64,000 nt of DNA from Gramella sp. Hel_I_59 (GTDB lineage Bacteria > Bacteroidota > Bacteroidia > Flavobacteriales > Flavobacteriaceae): NCBI RefSeq assembly GCF_006714895.1, contig NZ_VFME01000001.1:2852001-2916000 (forward strand), written 5' to 3'. Positions 1-11,740 of the stretch are shown here, in pieces. The notes under the pieces are model-generated. The model had not been told where the DNA came from. It worked only from the letters and a program-made list of their open reading frames with translations, and did not search any database. Each line of letters opens with the position of its first letter. Position 1 is the first letter of the stretch. The position numbers and the translations under genes are program-made.

Positions 1-1199
1 GTAATGTCTACAGTCTTATTGTAACCAACTTCTGCATATCCCAGTTTTTTAAGTTCAGTATAGAAAAATGGTAATAGATCCTGCCGAACGTGACGAATCA
101 AAATGTCCTGTCTCAAGGTTAATCTTAACTCGTTGCCTGCATATTTTTTAACCAAATCTGCTAGCTGCCTAGCTCCACGCGTATAAAAATCACCAAGCGG
201 CACACGAATTCCAATAGCGAATAATCCTTCCTGCTTTTGCGCAAAAACATTGGTTTTCTTCCAGCTTTCGAAATCATTCCTATCTTCGATTTCTACGGAA
301 GGAACCTCAACTTGTTGCAAAGCTGGAGCTGCTTCGAATCTTTCAATCTCAAATTCAGGTTGTTCTTGCGAAAGTGCCGTCTTTTGTTCGGCTACCAGTT
401 TCATAAATGCTTCTTTTCCTATATCCTTCAGAAGAAATTTCATTCTTGCTTTGAGACGTTTCGCACGTTCACCATGTCGATCAAAAACCCGGAGTACACC
501 TTCAATTAGAGGTATGATCTCTTCCGCAGGTAAAAAGTCATATAACTCATCTGCATGCCGGGGTTGTGAGCCCAGACCGCCACCAAGCATTACTTTGAAT
601 CCGCGTTTTCCATCCTTTAGTTTGGCGATAAAACCAAGATCATGTATATAACTAAGTGCAGTATCTTCATTTGAAGAAGAAAAGGACATCTTGAATTTTC
701 TGCCCATTTCCTGGCAGATAGGATTCCGAAGAAAAAATTGAAAGGCAGCGTGTGCATATGGTGATACATCGAAAGGCTCGTTGGGATCTATCCCAGCGGT
801 TGGCGAAGCTGTGATATTTCTTACCGTATTCCCGCAGGCTTCCCTAAGAGTGACATCATCTTTTTCCAGTTGCGCCCAAAGCTCGGGAGTCCTGTCCAGG
901 CTCACGTAATGGATCTGGATATCCTGCCTGGTTGTAATATGCAACCTACCTTTGGAATACTCATCTGAAACATTGGCGATCCGGTGTAATTGCTCTGAAG
1001 TCACCTTTCCAAACGGCAGTTTTATACGAACCATTTGAACTCCCGACTGTCGCTGTCCATAAACTCCCCGTGCAAGGCGCAGGCTACGAAACTTTTCTTC
1101 ATCAGCCTTTCCTTCGCGAAAAAGCCTGATCTTTTTTTCTAAATCCAGGATATCTTTCTCGACAACGGGATTTTCAATTTCGGTTCTAAAACTTTGCAT
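1..1199 (-). CDS. Nitrite/sulfite reductase-type hemoprotein, partial (C-terminal end beyond left edge)
   Basis: The open frame runs without interruption from an ATG at 1199 to the left edge, giving about 399 residues of the N-terminal half. Two ferredoxin-like NIR/SIR half-domains are recognisable: an early segment with YGQRQSG, VRIKLP and RLHITTRQDIQIHYV, and the repeat RLTLRQDILIRHV near the edge. ACGNTVRN near residue 105 is the siroheme-side motif. The two cysteine pairs that hold the 4Fe-4S cluster should lie further left and are not visible. The family reduces sulfite to sulfide (or nitrite to ammonia); its place after cysH-cysD-cysN and behind a Cys-codon leader argues for sulfite. 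The electron donor cannot be judged here. Confidence 0.9.
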   Translation of the reverse strand, partial: MQSFRTEIENPVVEKDILDLEKKIRLFREGKADEEKFRSLRLARGVYGQRQSGVQMVRIKLPFGKVTSEQLHRIANVSDEYSKGRLHITTRQDIQIHYVSLDRTPELWAQLEKDDVTLREACGNTVRNITASPTAGIDPNEPFDVSPYAHAAFQFFLRNPICQEMGRKFKMSFSSSNEDTALSYIHDLGFIAKLKDGKRGFKVMLGGGLGSQPRHADELYDFLPAEEIIPLIEGVLRVFDRHGERAKRLKARMKFLLKDIGKEAFMKLVAEQKTALSQEQPEFEIERFEAAPALQQVEVPSVEIEDRNDFESWKKTNVFAQKQEGLFAIGIRVPLGDFYTRGARQLADLVKKYAGNELRLTLRQDILIRHVRQDLLPFFYTELKKLGYAEVGYNKTVDI

Positions 1200-1218: not shown

Positions 1219-1252
1219 AAAAAAGTCCTTTTAAGAATGACACTTAAAAGGA
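1219..1252 (-). terminator. Intrinsic terminator of the sulfite reductase attenuator
   Basis: On the minus strand a perfect 10-bp stem (TCCTTTTAAG with CTTAAAAGGA, loop of 7) is followed by C and six T. It lies about 20 nt upstream of the reductase start codon and about 30 nt after the stop of a short Met/Cys leader. A competing hairpin is visible: GAGTT (1261-1265) with AACTC (1251-1255), which shares two bases with the terminator 5' arm. A second helix, ACTTAG (1284-1289, last codons of the leader) with CTGAGT (1262-1267), would block that competitor. This is the classical 1-2, 2-3, 3-4 arrangement; its function is inferred. Confidence 0.75.
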
Positions 1253-1283
1253 GTTTTTATAACTCAGTTTATAAAATGGACTT

Positions 1284-1346
1284 CTAAGTATGAGGCGAAT
1301 AGCACATACACATATTTGATAAAATGTTGATATTGAAGTGGTTCAT
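1284..1346 (-). CDS. Leader peptide with Met-Cys-Met-Cys, upstream of sulfite reductase
   Basis: A 20-codon frame begins at an ATG at 1346, 11 nt after the cysN stop codon, and ends TAG at 1284. The peptide ends MCMCYSPHT, so two of its 20 codons are Cys and three are Met. A shorter start at 1313 would give just those nine residues. It is too short to be a conventional protein and sits directly before an intrinsic terminator and a cysteine-synthesis gene. The best reading is a regulatory leader whose ribosome stalls when charged Cys-tRNA is scarce, letting transcription pass to the reductase. The parallel with two leaders upstream of metY strengthens this. Confidence 0.6.
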   Translation of the reverse strand: MNHFNINILSNMCMCYSPHT

Positions 1347-1356
1347 TTTCCAGCAA

Positions 1357-2601
1357 TTATTTAATAAATCCTACTCCGGCCGTGGTATTTGTTTGAGTAT
1401 CTACCAGAATAAATCGTCCATTTGTTCGATTTTCATTATAACTGTCCGCATAAATAGATTTACTTAGTTTGATCTTTACGCTACCAATATCATTCAGACT
1501 CAGAGAAGTTACATTCTCCTCGGCTCCAAAATTCGAATCAATATGGCTTTCTATTTTATCTATTTTTGCCAGAACACCGTTGGTATTATGTTGTAAAACA
1601 TATTTTTTGCCCGGAACCAAAGGGCGATTATCCATCCAGCAAACCATGGCATCCACAACTTTTGTTTCTTTAGGAACCTCTTTGGTCTTCACCAGCATAT
1701 CTCCTCTGGCGACATTTATATCATCTGCCAGGCTAATAGTTACAGAACTTCCTGCTGGAGCTTCATCAAAAGTTTCTTCGAAAAAATGAATGTCTTTGAT
1801 TTTCGAGGTCGTCAAGGATGGTAACACGGTTACATCATCTCCTACTCTCAGGCTATTACCATTAATTTTCCCTGCATAACCGCGGTAATCATGAAATTCT
1901 TCTGTTTTAGGTCTTATCACTGTTTGAACAGAAAACCTAGCCTGACTTTCTTCCGCAAAATCTTCAGCTTTAAGATCCTCGAGATGTTCCAATATGGTTT
2001 GTCCCTGATACCATGACATTGCGGTAGATTTTTCAGCAATATTCTCTCCCCATAGAGCGCTCACCGGAATAAAGGTGATTTTCTGATCTCGGAAATCACT
2101 TTTACTTCTTAACTCATCAAATTCCTTAATGATATTGGTGAATACATCTTCAGAATAATTGACAAGATCCATTTTATTTATAGCGACTATAACTTCTTTT
2201 ACTCTCAACAAATTATTTATAAAAAAGTGCCGGTACGTTTGTTCGATCACTCCCTTTCTGGCATCTATAAGTATAATTGAAGCTTGCGAAGTTGAAGCTC
2301 CGGTCACCATATTCCGTGTATATTCAATATGCCCCGGAGTATCGGCGATGATATAACTTTTCTTTGATGTTGAAAAGTAGATATGAGCCACATCTATTGT
2401 GATCCCCTGTTCTCTTTCTGCTACCAGACCGTCTGTAGCTAGTGAGAAATCCAAATAGTCCAAACCATTTTTCTTACTCACCCTATCAATGGCTTCCAAT
2501 TTATCTGAAGTTAAAGATTTGGTATCGTAAAGCAGTCTGCCTATGAGTGTGCTTTTACCATCATCAACGCTTCCTGCTGTTGCTATTTTTAATACTTCCA
2601 T
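1357..2601 (-). CDS. cysN: Sulfate adenylyltransferase large (GTPase) subunit CysN
   Basis: GTPase subunit of ATP sulfurylase, which couples GTP hydrolysis to formation of adenosine 5'-phosphosulfate with CysD. The EF-Tu-like G domain shows GSVDDGKST (residues 10-18), REQGITID (63-70), DTPGH (87-91) and NKMD (142-145), followed by beta-barrel domains. I place the start at the ATG at 2601 (MEVLKIATAG), 13 nt after the cysD stop, because the longer frame from 2682 runs through the cysD 3' end. At 414 residues it is a CysN alone, without a fused APS kinase (CysC) domain. Confidence 0.93.
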   Translation of the reverse strand: MEVLKIATAGSVDDGKSTLIGRLLYDTKSLTSDKLEAIDRVSKKNGLDYLDFSLATDGLVAEREQGITIDVAHIYFSTSKKSYIIADTPGHIEYTRNMVTGASTSQASIILIDARKGVIEQTYRHFFINNLLRVKEVIVAINKMDLVNYSEDVFTNIIKEFDELRSKSDFRDQKITFIPVSALWGENIAEKSTAMSWYQGQTILEHLEDLKAEDFAEESQARFSVQTVIRPKTEEFHDYRGYAGKINGNSLRVGDDVTVLPSLTTSKIKDIHFFEETFDEAPAGSSVTISLADDINVARGDMLVKTKEVPKETKVVDAMVCWMDNRPLVPGKKYVLQHNTNGVLAKIDKIESHIDSNFGAEENVTSLSLNDIGSVKIKLSKSIYADSYNENRTNGRFILVDTQTNTTAGVGFIK

Positions 2602-2614
2602 GCTCTTCTTTATT

Positions 2615-3514
2615 TTAAAAATAACCTTGTTGCTTTCTTGTTTCCATGGCGGCCTCAGATCTTTTATCATCGATCCTTGCACCTCTTTCTGAAATAGCTG
2701 ATTCCCTTACTTCCTTGATGATCTTTTCTACGGTATCTGCTCCAGATTCCACTGCAGCCGTACAGGTTATATCTCCCACAGTTCTAAATCGAACGGTTTT
2801 CATTTCTGTAAGTTCATGATCGTCTTTGTAAACATGCTCTGAAGCTGTCCAGATTAAACCATCTCTTTCAAAAATCTCTCTCTCGTGCGCGAAATAAATG
2901 GAAGGAATTTCAATCTTTTCAGCATCTATATAACTCCAAACATCTAGCTCTGTCCAGTTAGAAATAGGAAATACTCTAACATTCTGGCCAATATCGATAC
3001 GACCATTCAGCATATCAAAAACTTCTGGTCGCTGGTTCTTTTCATCCCACTCTCCAAAGTCATTTCTTACTGAAAAAATTCTCTCTTTTGCACGAGCTTT
3101 TTCTTCATCCCTTCTTGCTCCGCCTATACATGCATCGAACTTATATTCTTCAATAGCACTCAAAAGAGTATTGGTTTGCAATGAATTCCTGCTGGAGTAC
3201 CTGCCTTTTTCTTCAATAGAAACTCCGCTGTCAATATCATCCTGAACTTTTCTTACAATAAGGTTCAGTCCAAGTTCTTCAACTAATCGATCTCTGAACT
3301 CGATAGTTTCAGGAAAGTTGTGACCGGTATCTATGTGCATTAATGGAAAAGGAATTCTAGCGGGATAGAAGGCTTTTTGCGCTAAGCGTACCAAAGTGAT
3401 AGAATCCTTACCACCCGAAAATAATAGCACGGGATTTTCGAACTGAGCCACAACTTCCCGGAAGGTGTAAATAGCTTCGCTTTCTAACGTATTTTGATTT
3501 AAGATCGAACTCAT
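2615..3514 (-). CDS. cysD: Sulfate adenylyltransferase small subunit CysD
   Basis: Catalytic PP-loop subunit of ATP sulfurylase, which adenylates sulfate using ATP as the partner of CysN. The PP-loop SGGKDS lies at residues 33-38. It is followed by HIDTGHNFPETIEFRD, GARRDEEKARAKER and VFPISNWTELDVW, all typical of CysD. The start at 3514 (MSSILNQNTL) is chosen because an upstream in-frame ATG at 3541 overlaps the end of cysH. The length of 299 residues is normal for the family. It sits between cysH (10 nt away) and cysN (13 nt) in one operon. Confidence 0.94.
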   Translation of the reverse strand: MSSILNQNTLESEAIYTFREVVAQFENPVLLFSGGKDSITLVRLAQKAFYPARIPFPLMHIDTGHNFPETIEFRDRLVEELGLNLIVRKVQDDIDSGVSIEEKGRYSSRNSLQTNTLLSAIEEYKFDACIGGARRDEEKARAKERIFSVRNDFGEWDEKNQRPEVFDMLNGRIDIGQNVRVFPISNWTELDVWSYIDAEKIEIPSIYFAHEREIFERDGLIWTASEHVYKDDHELTEMKTVRFRTVGDITCTAAVESGADTVEKIIKEVRESAISERGARIDDKRSEAAMETRKQQGYF

Positions 3515-3524
3515 TTTTAAACTT

Positions 3525-4154
3525 TTAGGCGTGTAAACCACACTCTCTATTATTTAATACTTTTGTAGGGTCGAAATATTTGAATTCATTCGGTAATTTA
3601 TGCTCTCTCAAATACTCATCTAATTTTTCGTCTGACCAGTGGTAAAAAGGACTGACCTTAAGAAGACCGTCTTTACTATAACTTAGAATATCGATGCTAT
3701 CTCTAAAATTTGTCTGTCCTTTCCTAAGATTCGTAAACCACACATCTGGATTTTGTTCTGCCATTGCTCGCTGGAATGGTTCTAGTTTTACCTGCCTGGT
3801 AAATTCCTTATGATCTGGAGAATCTACTCCTGGAATACCCTTAAAAAATGCGTCTCTATAAGCAGCAGTTTCTTTTGGTGTATAAAGTTTCACTTTAAGA
3901 TCTAAATGGTCCATGAGAAACTGAGCATGTTTATAGGTAGGCAGAGTATTGTAACCTGTGTCGCACCAAATTATCTTCATAGAACTATCTACCTGAGTAC
4001 AGGCATGTAAGATTGCTGCTTCATAAGGTCTGAAATTGGTAGTAACTACTGGATTATTACTAGATGCCAAGACCCATTGAATTATTTCTGAAGGTGCTAC
4101 ACCGCGTAACTGACTGTTAAGTTTTTCTATTTCTGTATCGCTAAACTTTTTCAT
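3525..4154 (-). CDS. cysH: Phosphoadenylylsulfate reductase family protein CysH, lacking the Fe-S cysteine pairs
   Basis: Thioredoxin- or glutaredoxin-dependent reduction of activated sulfate to sulfite. Visible motifs are IIWCDTGYNTLPTY (PAPS reductase core), RKGQ, SPFYHWSD and the C-terminal ECGLHA, whose Cys (about residue 206) forms the thiosulfonate intermediate. The CC and CxxC pairs that bind the 4Fe-4S cluster of APS-type reductases are absent: only three cysteines are present. By family rule this suggests PAPS as substrate, yet no APS kinase gene (cysC) is in the cluster. 209 residues, slightly short. Start ATG at 4154. Confidence 0.9.
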   Translation of the reverse strand: MKKFSDTEIEKLNSQLRGVAPSEIIQWVLASSNNPVVTTNFRPYEAAILHACTQVDSSMKIIWCDTGYNTLPTYKHAQFLMDHLDLKVKLYTPKETAAYRDAFFKGIPGVDSPDHKEFTRQVKLEPFQRAMAEQNPDVWFTNLRKGQTNFRDSIDILSYSKDGLLKVSPFYHWSDEKLDEYLREHKLPNEFKYFDPTKVLNNRECGLHA

Positions 4155-5063: not shown

Positions 5064-6227
5064 CTATTCCTGCAAGGCCTTTTTAAGATCATTAATAATA
5101 TCTTCCACATGTTCCAGACCCACAGAAATTCTAACCAGGCTTTCTGAAATTCCTACCGCTTTCAACTCTTCGTCACTTAGTTTACTATGTGTAGTGGAAG
5201 CAGGATGAGTCACAATCGTCCTTGTATCTCCTAAATTTGCAGATCTTGAACACATTTGCAGTCTGTCGATAAACCTTCTACCTGCTTCCAGTCCGCCTTT
5301 GATCTGGAATGCCACTACATTACCGCCCAGTTTCATTTGTTTTCTTGCCACTTCATATTGTGGATGAGATTTCAAGAACGGATATTTTACGGTTTCTACT
5401 TGAGGTAAAGATTCGAGAAACTCTGCAACCTTTAGCGCATTTTCACAATGCTTTTCCAGTCTAATAGACAGTGTTTCCAGACTTTTTGATAAAACCCAGG
5501 CATTAAATGGCGATAGTGCCGGACCTGTATTTCTACTAAAAAGATAGATCTCACGAATTAGTTTATTATTACCTACTGTAATTCCGCCTAAGACCCTACC
5601 CTGTCCATCCATCAACTTTGTAGCCGAATGTATAACCAGGTCGGCCCCAAATTTTAAAGGATTCTGCAAATATGGAGTCGCAAAGCAATTATCTATAATC
5701 AAAATGAGATCATGTTTTCTGGCAATATTTGCAAGTAATTCTAGGTCCAGAATATCAACACCAGGATTGGTTGGTGATTCAGCAAACAGGATTTTTGTTT
5801 CAGGTTTGATCAAACTTTCAATATCTTCAGGTGCATTCACATCAAAATAATCATGTGAAATATTCCATTTTGGAAAATATTTAGTGAATAATCCATGAGT
5901 TGAACCAAATACAGAACGGGATGAAACTACATGATCACCGCTTTCCAGTAAGGCTGCCAAAGTAGAAAATACCGCAGCCATTCCTGTCGCAAAAGCAAAC
6001 CCATCCTCAGCTCCTTCCATCTTCACTACCTTGTCAATAAATTCTGAAGTATTAGGATTTGAATAGCGACTGTAAATATTTCGCTCCTTCTCTTCAGCAA
6101 AACTTGCTCGCATATCTTCTGAATCTTCAAAGACATAGCTGGATGTTAGATACATAGGTGTGGAGTGCTCCTGAAATTGAGTTCGTTCCAATTGCGTTCG
6201 TACCGCTATAGTTTCAAATTCTGCCAT
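5064..6227 (-). CDS. metZ: PLP-dependent trans-sulfuration enzyme, O-succinyl/O-acetylhomoserine sulfhydrylase (MetZ type)
   Basis: 387 residues of the Cys/Met-metabolism PLP family. The PLP lysine is K204 in SATKLMDGQGR; the LMDGQGR-LGG context and SRYSNPNT (residues 53-60) are typical of MetZ-type O-substituted homoserine sulfhydrylases. The family makes homocysteine from an acylated homoserine and sulfide. The gene starts 4 nt after the hom stop, so the two are co-transcribed. The operon also encodes a MetY; both could use O-acetylhomoserine, or this one may act as cystathionine gamma-synthase. Acyl specificity cannot be read from sequence alone. Confidence 0.85.
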   Translation of the reverse strand: MAEFETIAVRTQLERTQFQEHSTPMYLTSSYVFEDSEDMRASFAEEKERNIYSRYSNPNTSEFIDKVVKMEGAEDGFAFATGMAAVFSTLAALLESGDHVVSSRSVFGSTHGLFTKYFPKWNISHDYFDVNAPEDIESLIKPETKILFAESPTNPGVDILDLELLANIARKHDLILIIDNCFATPYLQNPLKFGADLVIHSATKLMDGQGRVLGGITVGNNKLIREIYLFSRNTGPALSPFNAWVLSKSLETLSIRLEKHCENALKVAEFLESLPQVETVKYPFLKSHPQYEVARKQMKLGGNVVAFQIKGGLEAGRRFIDRLQMCSRSANLGDTRTIVTHPASTTHSKLSDEELKAVGISESLVRISVGLEHVEDIINDLKKALQE

Positions 6228-6231
6228 TACT

Positions 6232-7305
6232 TTAGTTTAATTGCTTGTTTATCTTCAGAATATCGCTAAAAACACCTCGTGCGGTAACATCAATTCCTGC
6301 GCCTGCTCCCTGTATAACCAGTGGAAACTCTTTATAGGATTCAGAATAGATCTCAAAAATATTATCGGTTCCATCAATCTGGCCAAGCGGAGTTGCAGCA
6401 TTCGCTGAGATCAACCTCGTTTGCAAACTTCCATTTTCTACATTGAGTTCCCCCACATAACGCAATACTTCGCCGCTTTTGTTCTCCTCTTTATGCTTCT
6501 GAAAAATATCATCCAGAATTGAAATTTGCTTCTGAAAATGCTGTAAACGGGTTCCACCATTTAAGGATGTAGGAAGTAAAGATTGAATACTTACCTCTTC
6601 CAGCTCTTTCTTTAGCTGAAGTTCACGTGCAAGAATTAGTAATTTTCTGGCCACATCCTTCCCGCTAAGATCCACCCGTGCATCTGGCTCGGTATAACCA
6701 AATTCACCGGCCTTCCGAAGCACTTCTGAAAATTGAACATTTTCCTTTGAATAGGTGTTAAATATATAGCTGAGTGAACCTGAGAAAACTCCCCGAATTC
6801 TGGTTACCTGCTCACCAGAATCATACAGGCTTTTAATGGTTTCCACCACTGGCAAGCCAGCTCCCACATTTGTTTCGTACTGAAATATTTTATGATGTCT
6901 TTTCAAAGCTATTCTTAACTGCTGATAAAAATCCAGACTTAGTGTATTGGCAACTTTATTTGCGGCTACAATATGACTCCCATGTTCGATAAGATCAACA
7001 TAATTCTCAGGCAAATTATCACTTGCCGTTGTGTCTATGGAAATTAGATTAGTAAATGCATTATTTTTTAAATATTTCAGGATATCCTGGAATTGGTAAG
7101 AGTGTTTTTCCTTGCTAAACCGTTCGTTCCAGTGCTCATTAAAACCTAGATTATCAGTAATCAAATTACTGGAATCGGCAATCAGGATGATCCTGATCTC
7201 CAGGTCTGAATTTCTTAGAAGTTGATCTTTTGCAGCGATGATCTGCTGAATTAACTTACTTCCAACCTTACCCGGCCCAAACAGAGCGAGATTTATTATT
7301 TTCAT
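6232..7305 (-). CDS. hom: Homoserine dehydrogenase (monofunctional)
   Basis: 357 residues. The Rossmann motif is FGPGKVGSK (residues 9-17). The homoserine dehydrogenase catalytic region follows, with AANKVANT, YETNVGAGLPVVETIKSL and SGSLSYIFNTYS, and the substrate segment GYTEPDARVDLSGKDVARKLLIL. It reduces aspartate semialdehyde to homoserine, the precursor that MetX acetylates. It has no aspartokinase or ACT domain. The start overlaps the 3' end of metX by 38 nt, so translational coupling is likely. Its position inside a methionine operon suggests dedication to methionine rather than threonine supply. Confidence 0.92.
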   Translation of the reverse strand: MKIINLALFGPGKVGSKLIQQIIAAKDQLLRNSDLEIRIILIADSSNLITDNLGFNEHWNERFSKEKHSYQFQDILKYLKNNAFTNLISIDTTASDNLPENYVDLIEHGSHIVAANKVANTLSLDFYQQLRIALKRHHKIFQYETNVGAGLPVVETIKSLYDSGEQVTRIRGVFSGSLSYIFNTYSKENVQFSEVLRKAGEFGYTEPDARVDLSGKDVARKLLILARELQLKKELEEVSIQSLLPTSLNGGTRLQHFQKQISILDDIFQKHKEENKSGEVLRYVGELNVENGSLQTRLISANAATPLGQIDGTDNIFEIYSESYKEFPLVIQGAGAGIDVTARGVFSDILKINKQLN

Positions 7306-8281
7306 TTGTGTAGTTCTTTTTTTGAAATATGGGTTCTAAAAATTTTGCCACCTGGTCGGTTTCGATCAAAAATGCATCATGTCCATGAATAGATTTGATC
7401 TCGTGAATACTGACATTGTTTTTGAATAATGACAGCTCCACGTAAGAATTCCAATTCTCTTCTGCCAGGAAAAAAAGATCGGTATCTATCGTGATCATAT
7501 GTATATGGCCTTTAACCCGCGCAGCCACTTCAATAGCGCTTTGTGATTCATTTGAGATATTGATCGTAGTCAATAAATGGTTCATCAACTTATAGGAACT
7601 TAAACTAAAGCGCGATCTAAGTTTACTCCCGTGATGCTCCAGCCAGTTTTCGACCTTAAAACTCTTCGTAGTTTCGTCTTTTTCATTTCTGAATTTGTAG
7701 CTAAGCGATTGTGGTGTGCGATAAAAGGTCATCGCATGCATACGTGCATCTTCCAATGGATTCTCACTATTATTCAAAATCCTGTCCTGAATTTTACAAT
7801 TTGCAAGAAGCCAGTCTGTCGATTTAAGATCTGTAGCGATTGGGATCACGTGCAAGGCAAGGTCTGGTTTTAAAGCTGCCAGTTGCCAGGCGAGCGCTCC
7901 GCCAATAGAGGCTCCAATGATGGCAAATAGCTCTGTGATATTTAAGTATTCCAGAACTTTAACCTGGATTCTCGCAATATCATTCAGAGTAAACTCTTTA
8001 TAGTTATGAAAGCTATCTTCATCATTCTTCAGAATCCCATTTCCAGGAATGTTAATGCAAAGGATAGAATATTGATCTGTATCTATGCTCGCTCCAGGCC
8101 CCACAATATCACTCCACCAACCTCCTGAACCGCAAACCTGGGCATTGCCGGTAAGTGCATGATTCACCAGAATTACCGGAGCAGTTCCAAGTTTTCTGCC
8201 AAATAACTGGAAACAGACATCTATTTTCTGGACTTTGCCGGCACTATTCGTGAAATCTGTTATGCTTATTTGTTGTAACAT
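7268..8281 (-). CDS. metX: Homoserine O-acetyltransferase (MetX-like alpha/beta hydrolase)
   Basis: Transfers acetyl from acetyl-CoA to homoserine. Motifs in order are NHALTGNAQVCG (residues 40-51), GWWSDIVGPGASIDTDQY (54-71), the nucleophile S125 in GASIGG, DTDLFF (acid) and GHDAFL (catalytic His). At 337 residues it lacks part of the lid of longer MetX proteins. The start at 8281 (MLQQIS) is preferred over an upstream ATG at 8308, which lies inside a strong hairpin. The end overlaps hom. Confidence 0.88.
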   Translation of the reverse strand: MLQQISITDFTNSAGKVQKIDVCFQLFGRKLGTAPVILVNHALTGNAQVCGSGGWWSDIVGPGASIDTDQYSILCINIPGNGILKNDEDSFHNYKEFTLNDIARIQVKVLEYLNITELFAIIGASIGGALAWQLAALKPDLALHVIPIATDLKSTDWLLANCKIQDRILNNSENPLEDARMHAMTFYRTPQSLSYKFRNEKDETTKSFKVENWLEHHGSKLRSRFSLSSYKLMNHLLTTINISNESQSAIEVAARVKGHIHMITIDTDLFFLAEENWNSYVELSLFKNNVSIHEIKSIHGHDAFLIETDQVAKFLEPIFQKKNYTNENNKSRSVWAG

Positions 8282-8296
8282 AAAATTGAGGTTAAA

Positions 8297-8328
8297 CCGG
8301 AGCCGCATATATAGTATACAGGCTCCGG
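8297..8328 (-). other. Strong intercistronic hairpin between metY and metX
   Basis: CCGGAGCC and GGCTCCGG form a perfect 8-bp GC-rich stem with a 16-nt A/T loop. It lies between the metY stop and the metX start, with no T-run on either strand. It may protect the upstream message from decay or act as a processing site that sets a ratio between MetY and MetX. Rho-independent termination is unlikely without the T-run. Confidence 0.5.
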
Positions 8329-8347: not shown

Positions 8348-9640
8348 TTAAACAAGTGATTGTTGAGCAATCTGAGCGAAAGCCTGCTTCAAATCTGCTT
8401 TAAGATCTTCTGTATCTTCCAGTCCTATTGAAAGTCTTATTAGATCCGGCTTTACCCCTGCAGATAATTGTTCATCGTCTTTCAACTGCTGGTGAGTGGT
8501 ACTGGCAGGATGAATAATGAGCGATTTGGTATCTCCAATATTGGCAAGCAGTGAAAAGACCTTTGATGCATCTACTACTTTTTTAGCTACTTCATAACCT
8601 CCTTTGATTCCGAAAGTCACGAGTCCGCTTTGTCCTTTTGGTAAATACTGCTGAGCGATATCGTAGTACTCGCTGGATTCGAGGCCTGGATAATTCACCC
8701 ATTCCACTTCCTCCTGCTGCTCTAGCCAGGTGGCGAGTTCCAGCGCATTTTTACTATGTTCGTTTATTCTAACTTTCAGCGTTTCTAGTCCCTGGATGAT
8801 CTGGAACGCATTGAACGGACTCAAAGCTGCACCATGATCACGCAATCCTTCGATCCTTACTTTAGCTATGAATGCTGCTTCCTGCAATGCTTCGTGATAA
8901 ACTAATTCATGATATCCTGGAGATGGCTCGGTAAACTCAGGAAATTTACCACTAGACCAGTCGAACTTACCAGCATCAATGATCACTCCTCCAAGACTGG
9001 TTCCATTCCCTCCAATATATTTGGTTAGAGAGTGTATTACGATATCTGCTCCGTATTCTATTGGATTCAGAAGGTAAGGTGTGGCCACTGTATTATCCAC
9101 GATAAACGGCACTTTGAATTCCTTTGCCTTTTTAGAAATTGCCTTAAGATCCAGGACATCCAGTTTTGGGTTTCCCAGAGATTCAACGAAAAATACGCGG
9201 GTATTTTCCTGTGCTGCTTTTTTGAAATTGGCAGGATCACGTGGATCTACAAAAGTGGTTGTAATGCCAAATCTTGGCAGTGTATTTTGTAAAAGGTTGA
9301 AGGTCCCGCCATACAAACTGCTACTGGCTACAATATGATCGCCAGCTTTTAGTAAAGTTAGTAATGCAGTATTGATCGCAGCAGTTCCAGATGCTGTAAC
9401 CACCGCTCCAATTCCACCTTCCAGTGCTGCCAGCCTTTGTTCCAGCACATCATTAGTGGGATTATTTAAACGGGTATAAATAAAACCTGGCTTTGCAAGA
9501 GAAAAGAGATCTGCCGCATGCTGACTATCGTTGAAAACATAGGAACTGGTCTGGTAAATTGGTACCGCTCTGGTTCCTCCATTTTGAGTTGTATCGTGTC
9601 CTGAATGTAATGCCTGTGTTGAAAATTTTTGAGTACTCAT
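8348..9640 (-). CDS. metY: O-acetylhomoserine sulfhydrylase MetY
   Basis: 430 residues, the usual length of the long O-acetylhomoserine aminocarboxypropyltransferase subfamily, which makes homocysteine and acetate from O-acetylhomoserine and sulfide. The N-terminus FSTQALHSGHDTTQNGGTRAVPIYQTSSY and the PLP lysine K207 in IHSLTKYIGGNG are diagnostic, as is YTRLNNPTNDVLEQRLA. First gene of the operon, preceded by about 365 nt of transcribed leader that contains two attenuator units. Expression is therefore probably set by methionine/cysteine supply. Confidence 0.93.
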   Translation of the reverse strand: MSTQKFSTQALHSGHDTTQNGGTRAVPIYQTSSYVFNDSQHAADLFSLAKPGFIYTRLNNPTNDVLEQRLAALEGGIGAVVTASGTAAINTALLTLLKAGDHIVASSSLYGGTFNLLQNTLPRFGITTTFVDPRDPANFKKAAQENTRVFFVESLGNPKLDVLDLKAISKKAKEFKVPFIVDNTVATPYLLNPIEYGADIVIHSLTKYIGGNGTSLGGVIIDAGKFDWSSGKFPEFTEPSPGYHELVYHEALQEAAFIAKVRIEGLRDHGAALSPFNAFQIIQGLETLKVRINEHSKNALELATWLEQQEEVEWVNYPGLESSEYYDIAQQYLPKGQSGLVTFGIKGGYEVAKKVVDASKVFSLLANIGDTKSLIIHPASTTHQQLKDDEQLSAGVKPDLIRLSIGLEDTEDLKADLKQAFAQIAQQSLV

Positions 9641-9675: not shown

Positions 9676-9712
9676 AAAAAAGTCCCCCTGATATGCTATT
9701 ACCAGGGGGACT
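9676..9712 (-). terminator. Proximal attenuator terminator upstream of metY
   Basis: A perfect 10-bp stem (AGTCCCCCTG at 9703-9712, CAGGGGGACT at 9681-9690 on the minus strand, 12-nt loop) is followed by a run of T, 36 nt before the metY start codon. A 9-nt segment of its loop and 5' arm (9695-9703, GGTAATAGC) is perfectly complementary to codons of the preceding leader (9754-9762, GCTATTACC). A competing structure therefore exists. Confidence 0.8.
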
Positions 9713-9736
9713 TTTGAATTGATTCCTTTTTAAAAT

Positions 9737-9832
9737 CTATATTCTCGAGTTCAGGTAATAGCTATACATGCTGCACATACACATCATCATGCGCATGTTC
9801 ATCATATTTTTAACTGTTACCTGTAATTTCAT
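9737..9832 (-). CDS. Methionine-rich leader peptide B, proximal to metY
   Basis: 31 codons from ATG at 9832 to TAG at 9737, with nine Met and two Cys. The middle reads NMMNMRMMMCMCSM and is followed directly by codons SYYL, whose bases GCTATTACC pair with the downstream terminator region. No similarity to a functional protein is apparent. A ribosome held at the Met/Cys run would leave or occlude the SYYL codons and so choose between terminator and antiterminator. The codon composition matches the product of the downstream operon, which is the hallmark of amino-acid leader peptides (trpL, hisL and others). Confidence 0.7.
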   Translation of the reverse strand: MKLQVTVKNMMNMRMMMCMCSMYSYYLNSRI

Positions 9833-9870
9833 AATTGTAAGTTTTATATTCTAATTTCAATTTTGGCCAT

Positions 9871-9904
9871 AAAAAAAGCCGCTGCGGTTGGCAGCGGCTT
9901 TTTG
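9871..9904 (-). terminator. Distal attenuator terminator upstream of metY
   Basis: A perfect 10-bp GC-rich stem (AAGCCGCTGC / GCAGCGGCTT, 5-nt loop) is followed on the minus strand by seven T. The 5' arm contains CGCTGC (9891-9896), complementary to GCAGCG in the preceding leader (9940-9945, its Ala-Ala codons). A further hairpin (ATTCT-GAA-AGAAT within TTGCA...TGCAA) fills the spacer. The flanks also give a T-run on the plus strand. Confidence 0.8.
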
Positions 9905-9924
9905 CAATATATATTCTTTCAGAA

Positions 9925-9996
9925 TTATGCAATAAGGTGCGCTGCGGAAGTTCTCCACATCATACACATCATCATATTGCAAACTGTTCTGTACAT
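9925..9996 (-). CDS. Methionine-rich leader peptide A, promoter-proximal
   Basis: 23 codons from ATG at 9996 to TAA at 9925, containing six Met, two Cys and a Trp in the order VCNMMMCMMW. It starts about ten bases after the predicted transcription start, so it is the first thing translated on the metY transcript. Codons after the Met/Cys cluster (Ser-Ala-Ala) contain GCAGCG, a copy of part of the terminator 3' arm, and so can sequester the 5' arm. It forms the first of two independent attenuator units in series. Confidence 0.68.
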   Translation of the reverse strand: MYRTVCNMMMCMMWRTSAAHLIA

Positions 9997-10014
9997 TGTT
10001 CTAAAATTGTTTTA

Positions 10015-10046
10015 CAAAGATAACGGCAGAGTTTTTTATTATCCAA
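10015..10046 (-). promoter_or_regulatory. Promoter of the metY-metX-hom-metZ operon
   Basis: TTGG (10043-10046), 20 nt, and TATCTTTG (10015-10022) on the minus strand match the Bacteroidota housekeeping promoter. Transcription would begin near 10007, just before leader peptide A. Confidence 0.6.
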
Positions 10047-10132: not shown

Positions 10133-10245
10133 GTTGCGTTAGGGATAGAGCGAGTTGTTTGAGCTCTTTTGGTTCATTTTCGAACCAAAAAGCGAGTCGC
10201 GAAAGCCCGGCGCAAGACCGGAACGGGCGAAGCGCAACGCCCTAA
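10133..10245. repeat. GC-rich palindromic intergenic element
   Basis: The element is much richer in G+C than its surroundings. Its ends are inverted (TTAGGG at 10139-10144, CCCTAA at 10240-10245, with GTTGCG and CGCAAC next to them). Inside are a perfect 9-bp hairpin (TTTTGGTTC/GAACCAAAA) and a GCCCG...CGGGC hairpin containing two CCGG. This resembles the short REP-like palindromes scattered through Flavobacteriaceae genomes. I see one copy in the window. The 64-codon plus-strand frame across it is not a gene. Confidence 0.55.
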
Positions 10246-10300
10246 TATTTCACGAAAATGCAGCTGTAATTCCACGTCCTTTAAAATGGCGTTAAATCGA

Positions 10301-10335: not shown

Positions 10336-10425
10336 ACTTATTGAAAGGGATAGATTTGACTGATTGCAACCCTCTACATCACATCGATGTTTTAAAATGC
10401 TAAAGCAGAATGGTAATTACACTCC
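10336..10425 (+). promoter_or_regulatory. Structured metK 5' UTR, candidate S-box/SAM-I-like riboswitch
   Basis: Immediately after the predicted start site the RNA contains AGGG (10346-10349) able to pair with CCCT (10370-10373), the motif GATTGCAACC ending at 10371, a hairpin ACATC/GATGT (10376-10390) and TGCTAAAGCA (10398-10407). The order GGGA, GCAACC, hairpin, AA-TGCTAA is the order of conserved elements in SAM-I-family riboswitches, in a shortened form; the gene product makes SAM. I cannot find a convincing closing P1 stem or a terminator, so translational control, or a different RNA class, is possible. A covariance search would decide. Confidence 0.42.
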
Positions 10426-10480: not shown

Positions 10481-11740
10481 ATGGCTTATTTATTTACTTC
10501 AGAAAGTGTATCTGAAGGACACCCGGATAAAATTGCAGATCAAATTAGTGATACGTTACTGGATAATTTTCTTGCCTTCGATGGCGAATCGAAAGTAGCT
10601 TGCGAAACTCTGGTTACAACCGGGCAGGTAGTACTTGCTGGTGAAGTACGTAGTAATACATATCTGGATGTTCAAAATATCGCACGTGACGTGATCAATG
10701 ATATTGGTTATACAAAAGGTGCTTATAAATTTAGTGGTGATAGTTGCGGTGTGATCTCCCTTATTCATGAACAGTCCCAGGATATTTACCAGGGTGTGGA
10801 TCGTGGAAAGAAGGAGGAACAGGGTGCTGGTGACCAGGGAATGATGTTTGGTTATGCGACCAATGAAACTGAAAACTATATGCCGCTGGCATTAGATATT
10901 TCACATCGTATCCTAATTGAACTGGCTAAACTTAGAAGAGAAAGTAAAGATATCGAATATCTACGACCTGACTCCAAGAGCCAGGTGACTATTGAATATA
11001 GCGATGACAACGTTCCTGAAAGAATTGTTGCGATCGTGGTTTCTACGCAGCATGATGATTTTGATCAGGATGATGAAAAAATGCTGGCGAAGATCAAAAA
11101 GGATATGGTTGAGATTCTTATCCCAAGAGTTAAGAAACAGCTGCCAGATTATGTTCAGGAATTGTTCAATGACGACATTATTTACCATATTAATCCTACC
11201 GGCAAGTTCGTAATTGGAGGTCCACATGGTGACGCAGGACTCACCGGAAGAAAAATTATTGTAGATACCTATGGTGGAAAAGGTGCTCATGGTGGTGGTG
11301 CATTCTCAGGAAAAGATCCTTCTAAAGTAGATAGATCTGCCGCGTATGCTTCCAGACATATTGCCAAGAACCTGGTAGCTGCAGGAGTAGCTCCTGAAAT
11401 TCTGGTACAGGTTTCTTATGCAATTGGGGTGGTGGAACCAACTTCTATTTCGGTTTATACCTACGGAAAGAATAATACAGATCTTTCTGATGGTCAGATT
11501 GCAGAAAAGGTTCGTAAAATTTTTGATATGCGACCAGCTGCGATCGAAGAACGACTGAAGTTAAGAAATCCAATTTACCGGGAAACTGCTGCATATGGAC
11601 ATATGGGAAAAACTCCGCGTACAGAAACCAAGGTTTTTGAAAGTCCGTATAATGGTAAGATCACCAAGGAAGTGGAACTATTTACCTGGGAGAAGCTCGA
11701 TTATGTAGATAAGATCAAAGAAAGTTTCGATTTGAAATAA
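10481..11740 (+). CDS. metK: S-adenosylmethionine synthetase MetK
   Basis: Forms SAM from methionine and [23 protein letters not shown] at the N-terminus supplies the catalytic His and metal-binding residues. [33 protein letters not shown] and [11 protein letters not shown] complete the family signature. 419 residues, slightly longer than E. coli MetK, as usual in Bacteroidota. It is divergent from the methionine operon, with its own consensus promoter and a structured leader, and ends at a strong terminator. Confidence 0.97.

Follow-up and report, generated by a model that had tools for sequence, protein, structure and literature searches.

Layout of the metY leader region

The locus lies in a window of 64,000 nt, the window being the whole stretch of DNA that was analysed. 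metY is followed on the minus strand by a series of genes for homoserine and methionine synthesis and for sulfate and sulfite reduction, with a gene for an Rrf2 regulator between the sulfhydrylase-like and cysH-like genes (Table 1); we infer the extent of the operon behind metY. Between metY (start 9640, minus strand) and the divergent metK (plus strand) lie two leader units, termed A and B. Read 5' to 3' on the minus strand, the order is promoter element, leader A, terminator A, leader B, terminator B and metY. Between the promoter of A and the SAM-II riboswitch of metK, at about 10133–10247, a GC-rich stretch with inverted repeats in AT-rich surroundings was noted by eye and may be a repeat element.

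Table 1. Positions in the window of the genes, leader frames and RNA elements discussed in the text.
Feature	Position	Strand	Basis
Sulfite reductase-like gene, continues past the window edge	1..1199	-	matches below cut-offs
Terminator C, 10-bp stem and T run	1219..1252	-	
C segment 2, ACTTAGAAG, spans the stop codon; pairs with CTTTTAAGT at 1250..1242	1281..1289	-	
Leader C frame, MNHFNINILSNMCMCYSPHT, third unit, between cysN and the sulfite reductase gene	1284..1346	-	
cysN	1357..2682	-	TIGR02034, 501.7 bits, cut-off 336.1
cysD	2615..3541	-	score above cut-off
cysH-like gene	3525..4154	-	matches below cut-offs
O-succinylhomoserine sulfhydrylase-like gene	5064..6227	-	518 bits, below the cut-off of 522
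Homoserine dehydrogenase-like gene	6232..7305	-	matches below cut-offs
MetX-like homoserine acyltransferase gene	7268..8308	-	matches below cut-offs
metY, O-acetylhomoserine sulfhydrylase	8348..9640	-	TIGR01326, 634.7 bits, cut-off 495.1
Terminator B, 16-bp stem and T run	9676..9715	-	pattern scan, covariation
B segment 3, GGTAATAGC, upper stem and loop of terminator B	9695..9703	-	
Leader B frame, MKLQVTVKNMMNMRMMMCMCSMYSYYLNSRI, 31 aa	9737..9832	-	relatives aligned
B segment 2, GCTATTACC	9754..9762	-	
B segment 1, CAGGTAACAG, can pair with segment 2 (alternative fold)	9814..9823	-	window fold only
Terminator A, 12-bp stem and T run	9871..9902	-	pattern scan, covariation
A segment 3, terminator 5' arm and loop, common to antiterminator and terminator	9885..9896	-	
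Leader A frame, MYRTVCNMMMCMMWRTSAAHLIA, 23 aa	9925..9996	-	relatives aligned
A segment 2, codons after the Met run, GCAGCG and TTGCA, 5' side of the antiterminator	9928..9945	-	
A protector hairpin (segments 1:2), overlaps the last Met codon	9943..9959	-	78.0% of cells paired, 41-row alignment
Promoter -7 element, TATCTTTG	10015..10022	-	fits TAnnTTTG
SAM-II riboswitch of metK	10340..10413	+	RF01726, 49.2 bits, threshold 44
metK, divergent	10481..11740	+	TIGR01034, 493.3 bits, cut-off 309.4

Leader A (MYRTVCNMMMCMMWRTSAAHLIA) holds six Met, start counted, and two Cys, and leader B (MKLQVTVKNMMNMRMMMCMCSMYSYYLNSRI) nine Met, start counted, and two Cys, so that the lengths and compositions given in an earlier note on this DNA were confirmed. 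The same applies to its statement that an intrinsic terminator stands behind each leader, both in series before metY; the stem of terminator A has 12 perfect pairs and that of terminator B 16 pairs including one G-U, and a T run follows each of them. Complementarity between the codons behind the Met/Cys run and the terminator region was likewise recovered over 6 nt in A (GCAGCG:CGCTGC) and 9 nt in B (GCTATTACC:GGTAATAGC). The antiterminator of A is in fact longer than first stated, as a TTGCA:TGCAA helix and an inner hairpin fold together with GCAGCG:CGCTGC.

The earlier note had named a consensus promoter upstream of leader A. A scan for sigma-70-type promoters returned no site at the right place before leader A, and what is found there is a Bacteroidota-type element, TATCTTTG, read against TAnnTTTG, which we take to be the consensus of the Bacteroidota promoter -7 element. 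Of the 36 loci that have both units in tandem, 25 show this motif no more than 70 nt upstream of A, and in 24 of these it lies 26–31 nt before the start codon; the 11 tandem loci lacking it there are Flavobacterium or Flavobacteriales-type loci. Anywhere between A and B it was found in none of the 36. The two units most likely lie on one transcript, and the absence of the promoter element between them is counted as support for this.

Occurrence of the units beyond chance and among relatives

Both strands of the 64-kb window were scanned for short frames that combine a stretch of 10 residues holding 4 or more Met/Cys with a terminator of 4 or more G-C pairs 5–70 nt behind the stop codon. Only A and B passed this rule; in the long frames of the window Met makes up 2.5% and Cys 0.54% of residues. 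For comparison among relatives, genome contigs were scanned with the MetY protein and the best 80 of 216 stretches encoding a relative were used as metY loci. A rule that asks for 5 or more Met/Cys within 10 residues, with a terminator 10–60 nt behind the stop, applied to 700 nt upstream, yielded 88 units in these 80 loci versus 0 in 789 dinucleotide shuffles. By script, 36 of these best 80 of 216 loci have both units, 4 have A only, 12 have B only and 28 have neither, which leaves 52 with at least one unit. Five of the 28 (L013, L019, L026, L048 and L058) contain leader-like frames, recognized by eye, that fall below the script rules, and L032, also among the 28, has only 182 nt upstream. Tandem loci include Christiangramia, Gillisia, Salinimicrobium, Flavobacterium, a Chryseobacterium MAG (L080) and a Flavobacteriia MAG (L078).

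Across the family, unit A was found in 14 of 149 genomes (one per genus, the window's own included). A match to B lies just downstream on the same strand in 8 of the 14 A-bearing genera, and in the other 6 there is no neighbouring B match. Model matches were also obtained in three class-level genomes outside the order; those in G545 and G479 were unconvincing on inspection and the one in G573 was real. Candidate matches came up at order level in G173 and G305, as did candidate second copies of A in genus g112. In the family of G573, tandem units precede metY in G573 and G665, which belong to one genus, and precede cysH-like and cysD genes in a third genome, G642. Matches at E ≤ 0.01 were obtained in 27 of 60 genomes of this family, and among 29 further loci (L202–L230) only L202, L204, L206 and L208 were convincing. 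Searches of the window's own genome for further copies of A or B (R1 and R2) gave strong matches at metY only; of the next-best matches, the five R1 loci and three R2 loci that were read mostly resemble plain 3'-end terminators.

Within frame B, 2778 of 3136 pairwise gap runs in the alignment have a length divisible by three, as opposed to 461 of 3500 after the stop codon. The effect is less marked in frame A (244 of 392 versus 437 of 1745 after the stop). These triplet gaps are an indirect sign in the sequence that the leader frames may be translated. Frames, terminators and complementary segments are kept among relatives while the rest drifts, which is the outcome of the conservation check that the earlier note had proposed.

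Two further short frames were noted by eye. In L013, a small protein frame starting MKTLNSIAVEYLL lies between unit B and metY. In L121 (genome G111, about 1350–1800), between metY and the following met gene, a short frame ending VCVC is accompanied by a terminator and a CCAAAAG:CTTTTGG pairing, with another small frame behind it.

Alternative pairing and covariation

In both units segment 2, at the end of the frame, pairs with segment 3 in the 5' arm of that unit's terminator, and the pairing shows covariation. The A pair, GCAGCG:CGCTGC in the window, reads GCAGAGG:CCTCTGC at several Flavobacterium loci, GCAGGGGCT:AGCCCCTGC in L078 and GCGGA:TCCGC in L064, and the B pair occurs, among other versions, as GCTATTACC:GGTAATAGC, TTGCCAAA:TTTGGCAA, TTACCAAAAG:CTTTTGGTAA and TTTCCAAAAG:CTTTTGGAAA. 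The arm belonging to the same locus scores above the mean of arms with a different core at 40 of 40 A loci and 39 of 48 B loci.

Protector and terminator of A together were paired in 88.1% of alignment cells, with a covariation of 0.242 against a shuffled mean of 0.150 and 0.059–0.110 for slid structures. The A antiterminator was paired in 75.0% of cells (covariation 0.201, shuffled 0.112, slid at most 0.061), its second part in 58.9%, and the B terminator in 93.5% (covariation 0.386, shuffled 0.241, slid at most 0.225). None of 500 shuffles, which leave the relatedness of the loci in place, reached the covariation score of any of the three structures. The observed count of pairs altered on both sides was reached by 2 of 500 shuffles for the A protector and terminator, 40 for the A antiterminator and 28 for the B terminator, and that of further pair types by 12, 261 and 377 of 500, respectively. 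The A protector by itself was paired in 78.0% of cells, in an alignment that is one base out of register in some rows. In the MAFFT alignment of A, segment 2 is one base off register in part of the Flavobacterium rows and covariation of the A antiterminator is therefore understated. The corresponding protector pairing of B (segments 1:2) was visible only in the fold of the window sequence.

Pairs between segments 2 and 3 were also counted after anchoring, by a rule that depends on GC and CC motifs, places a few rows wrongly and leaves out 5 B loci; upon re-dealing of the arms, the observed value was reached in 3 of 2000 cases in each unit. Few single positions stood out in this count (position 4 of A, 2/1000; position 2 of B, 12/1000). 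Within single loci the complementarity of A is often unexceptional, being reached by 21 of 200 shuffles in L001 and by 55–100 of 200 in L010, L012 and L014 of Gillisia, and the single-locus duplex test is weak for many Christiangramia and Gillisia A units. L060 for A and L012, L014, L028 and L054 for B did not rise above shuffles in this test; in a wider search region, helices of 6 to 8 nt were found in L060 (A) and in L012, L014 and L028 (B). The case for the predicted pairing is carried by the comparative signal and not by single sequences.

Codons at the predicted stalling position

The control codon was defined as the last Met or Cys codon at least 9 nt from the antiterminator helix. In A it is Met in 40 of 41 loci and lies 10–12 nt from the helix in 41 of 41; in B, 36 of 48 loci have Cys and the other 12 have Met, at 9–17 nt in 48 of 49 loci, one of the 49 having given none. 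Two helices in these spacing counts are doubtful, as that scored for L052 (A) falls within the protector region and that for L054 (B) is remote from the stop codon. Both amino acids are nevertheless present in both leaders, as 39 of 40 A leaders of relatives contain Cys and 48 of 48 B leaders contain Met after the start. The six A leaders from genera without an adjoining B match hold two Cys in total, none of them inside the Met run, and the run next to segment 2 is Met.

From the control codon counts and the Met runs of these six lone leaders, A appears to be a methionine gate and B a gate biased towards cysteine. Since both runs mix Met and Cys, gating by two signals is put forward as a hypothesis. 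The suggestion of the earlier note that the leaders might sense Met and Cys separately is backed in part by the identity of the control codon.

A third unit and related leaders before other sulfur genes

The earlier note had described two units, and this turned out to be too few. A weak R2 match at 1214–1348 of the window (24.4 bits, E 0.096) proved on inspection to be a third unit, C, which stands before the sulfite reductase gene. The filter applied to the window had missed C because the core of terminator C has only 3 G-C pairs. Unit C is present in 22 of 23 genomes of the genus that have the sulfite reductase gene and was not found in the remaining one (L157); its core reads MCM[C/R], usually followed by SPHT. 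It also occurs in L115, which is of another genus. A family-wide search matched 33 genomes, three of which gave no locus, and 30 loci were read. Scanning for C with at least 4 G-C pairs returned none in 30 loci, and under looser rules it was found in the own genome and L115 only among 31 loci (in the own genome only among the 30 family-wide loci). C therefore looks restricted to the genus and one relative.

Comparable leaders were found before genes of cysteine synthesis. In L201 (genus g112, 1395–1660), an A-type leader (..VCNMCCMMWKNPQSISIA) and a terminator precede serine acetyltransferase and cysteine synthase genes. In L206 and L208, from one distant genus, a leader containing Cys and no Met after the start (MNALKLNTCCLCFC...) is found with a terminator at about 1500–1640 in the direction of the match. 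It precedes the serine acetyltransferase gene cysE, which scored above the EpsC cut-off, and in L206 a CysM-like cysteine synthase gene comes next. The codons of the leaders in L206 and L208 match the pathway of the gene behind them, which argues for tRNA sensing.

SAM riboswitches at metY and elsewhere

All 80 metY loci (best 80 of 216) were scanned with Rfam for riboswitches. Among the 28 loci without script-detected units, 17 carry a SAM riboswitch (11 SAM-I, 6 SAM-II) on the metY strand, at most about 300 nt upstream; loci of this kind come from Dokdonia, Maribacter, Nonlabens, Arenibacter and several MAGs or single-cell genomes. At this place upstream of metY, no riboswitch was found in any of the 52 leader-bearing loci; such SAM-II matches as these loci have are on the other strand, towards metK, and their SAM-I matches are downstream of metY. 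L068 and L079 have a SAM-II about 1.4 kb upstream of metY. Four loci (L027, L032, L053 and L074) have neither leader units by script nor a SAM riboswitch at the place before metY.

In the window, 4227 Rfam families at their gathering scores gave no riboswitch or T-box at A or B, the only match being the SAM-II riboswitch at metK, which is also the only SAM-II match of the genome. The only SAM-I match of the genome (G000:C1:2847111-2847214, equal to L178 7111–7214) lies outside the window, upstream of metH and metF. One pathway hence appears to use SAM-I, SAM-II and putative leader attenuators. In the same stretch, metH was seen to consist of two overlapping frames, one with the homocysteine methyltransferase part and one with the rest (L178 3366–7059).

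SAM riboswitches sense SAM directly and bring about shut-off once the product is plentiful. Where they precede metY they share the gene and the place of the A and B leaders, and they do so in other loci, without leaders. SAM riboswitches and leaders predicted to read tRNA charging would thus be different kinds of RNA sensor for the same gene within one family.

Proposed mechanism and alternatives

We consider it most probable, at roughly 0.88, that A and B are two ribosome-mediated transcription attenuators arranged in series on one transcript that read the charging of Met- and Cys-tRNA. Hallmarks of attenuators found in the units are clustered codons for the product, an intrinsic terminator pattern, antiterminator pairing and control codons at stalling distance. 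Support at the level of sequence comes from the conserved frames, the Met/Cys runs, the terminators, the covarying alternative pairs, the narrow spacing in A and the occurrence of SAM riboswitches at the same place elsewhere. The conserved frames, terminators and complementary segments likewise favour the view taken in the earlier note, namely that these are leader attenuators sensing charged tRNA.

Under the proposed mechanism, RNA polymerase would start about 12 nt before A, as judged from the promoter element, with a ribosome following it. When Met-tRNA, along with Cys-tRNA, is plentiful, the ribosome would move on to the stop codon and mask segment 2, segments 3 and 4 would pair, and terminator A would end transcription. 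In most A units a ribosome at the stop codon, 18–19 nt behind the start of the helix, would cover segment 2, given the usual size of a ribosome footprint. A ribosome waiting at the Met/Cys run would have its leading edge just short of segment 2, so that with the control codon in its A site segment 2 would just be free; segments 2 and 3 would then pair and terminator A would be blocked. Polymerase that has passed terminator A would reach B, where the identical choice would be repeated. Only transcripts that pass both gates would reach metY and the homoserine and methionine genes behind it, and as the gates are in series, read-through would multiply. Translation of the leader frames, termination at A and B, stalling of the ribosome and the response to Met and Cys are all predicted steps. 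A difficulty for any methionine leader is that its own start needs Met-tRNA.

The closest competitor keeps this mechanism and lets both gates read one signal, methionine with cysteine as a companion, so that the tandem only deepens repression and widens its range. The mixture of Met and Cys in both runs, with Cys in 39 of 40 A leaders and Met in 48 of 48 B leaders, fits this, and gates in series multiply whatever signal they read. Against it stand the last well-placed control codons (Met in 40 of 41 for A, Cys in 36 of 48 for B) and the six lone A leaders, which hold two Cys in all with none in the Met run by segment 2. We put a single shared signal at somewhat below even odds. It is improbable that only one unit is a sensor and that the other is a degenerate or constitutive terminator. 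Lone units do exist (by script, 12 of the 80 loci have B alone and 4 have A alone, the 80 being the best of 216), and in 6 of 14 genera no B match adjoins A; where both are present, however, both retain codon runs, terminators and pairing segments, also in the distant family.

The remaining alternatives dispense with tRNA charging altogether. Sensing of metal or oxidants by Met/Cys-rich peptides through nascent-chain arrest might be inferred from the likeness of MMMCMC-like runs to metal-binding sequences, but the residues between Met and Cys vary, the controlled genes make Met and Cys, the Cys leaders before cysE have no Met run, and a spacing as narrow as the 10–12 nt of A is what would be expected of stalling at a codon. 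No context supporting metal sensing was seen, and we regard this explanation as very improbable. Slightly less probable still is that A and B are RNAs binding a ligand or a protein, such as a riboswitch or T-box, with incidental frames. The SAM riboswitches occupying the same place in other loci would speak for it, but no Rfam family matches A or B, the gaps in frame B are mostly triplet, and the pairing segment sits in the codons directly behind the Met/Cys run.

Relation to known systems and significance

In the attenuators of the enteric trp, his, leu and thr operons, a short frame with codons for the product is combined with 1:2, 2:3 and 3:4 pairings and an intrinsic terminator before the structural genes. 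A and B share with these the codon run, predicted alternative pairings and a terminator pattern ahead of structural genes. They differ in that methionine would be read, that two complete units stand in series and that the host belongs to the Bacteroidia.

The tandem arrangement on one transcript that the earlier note had pointed out is present, but tandem attenuators with different signals are already on record. The Salmonella mgtCBR leader has two short frames and tandem attenuators responding to ATP and to proline-tRNA and is called a singular example (PMC3641672). A and B likewise place a pair of short frames within a single leader, each belonging to a putative attenuator, the control codon counts being what suggests that their signals differ. 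Unlike mgtCBR as described there, A and B each have an intrinsic terminator of their own, both runs contain Met and Cys, and the genes behind them serve amino-acid biosynthesis.

Cysteine leaders have precedents. The uORFC-8-2 motif before cysS of Rhodobacterales has Cys codons in a short frame and is predicted to act by ribosome-mediated attenuation (PMC8632094); as presented there it differs from A and B in reading cysteine only, in being a single unit, in the phylum and in that the gene behind it encodes a tRNA synthetase. The Cys-rich leaders of actinobacterial cys operons, for which no conserved terminators are reported (PMC1262725), and the runs of Cys codons in mycobacterial uORFs before sulfur genes (PMC4633059) share Cys runs ahead of sulfur genes with A and B; Met runs are not mentioned in the available portions of either source. 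Upstream of the methionine operons of Actinobacteria, PMC1262725 reports no conserved RNA structure. A transcriptome study of Flavobacterium psychrophilum, which is of the same family as the host of A and B, mentions leader-peptide attenuation before amino-acid operons, and neither methionine nor metY is named anywhere in its main text (PMC9723704). The met 5'UTR of Xanthomonas works chiefly at the level of translation, and neither "leader" nor "peptide" appears as a word in that paper. Among the matches listed in open-access full texts, a scope that leaves most subscription papers outside, there was no methionine leader peptide. The mechanism class and tandem attenuators are already known, and a methionine-reading leader was not met in the open-access literature searched.

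We see a wider interpretation as falling slightly short of an even chance, namely that the units form a sulfur amino-acid regulon of leader-peptide attenuators in Bacteroidia, in which A reads elongator Met-tRNA, B reads Cys-tRNA along with Met, and C gates sulfite reductase. metY would then follow the product of two charging states, and the leaders would take the place of SAM riboswitches at metY in part of the Flavobacteriaceae. The tandem raises the question of what is computed by a pair of serial gates, and the units point to a possible annotation rule for short frames ahead of met and cys genes. Sensing of Trp, His, Leu and Thr by leader peptides is textbook knowledge, and methionine is an awkward case because the start of the leader uses the same amino acid and the same synthetase. 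A natural and conserved methionine leader would make testable a situation in which elongation is starved while initiation continues. If the regulon interpretation is true, methionine, although needed at every translation start, can still be read by a leader peptide.
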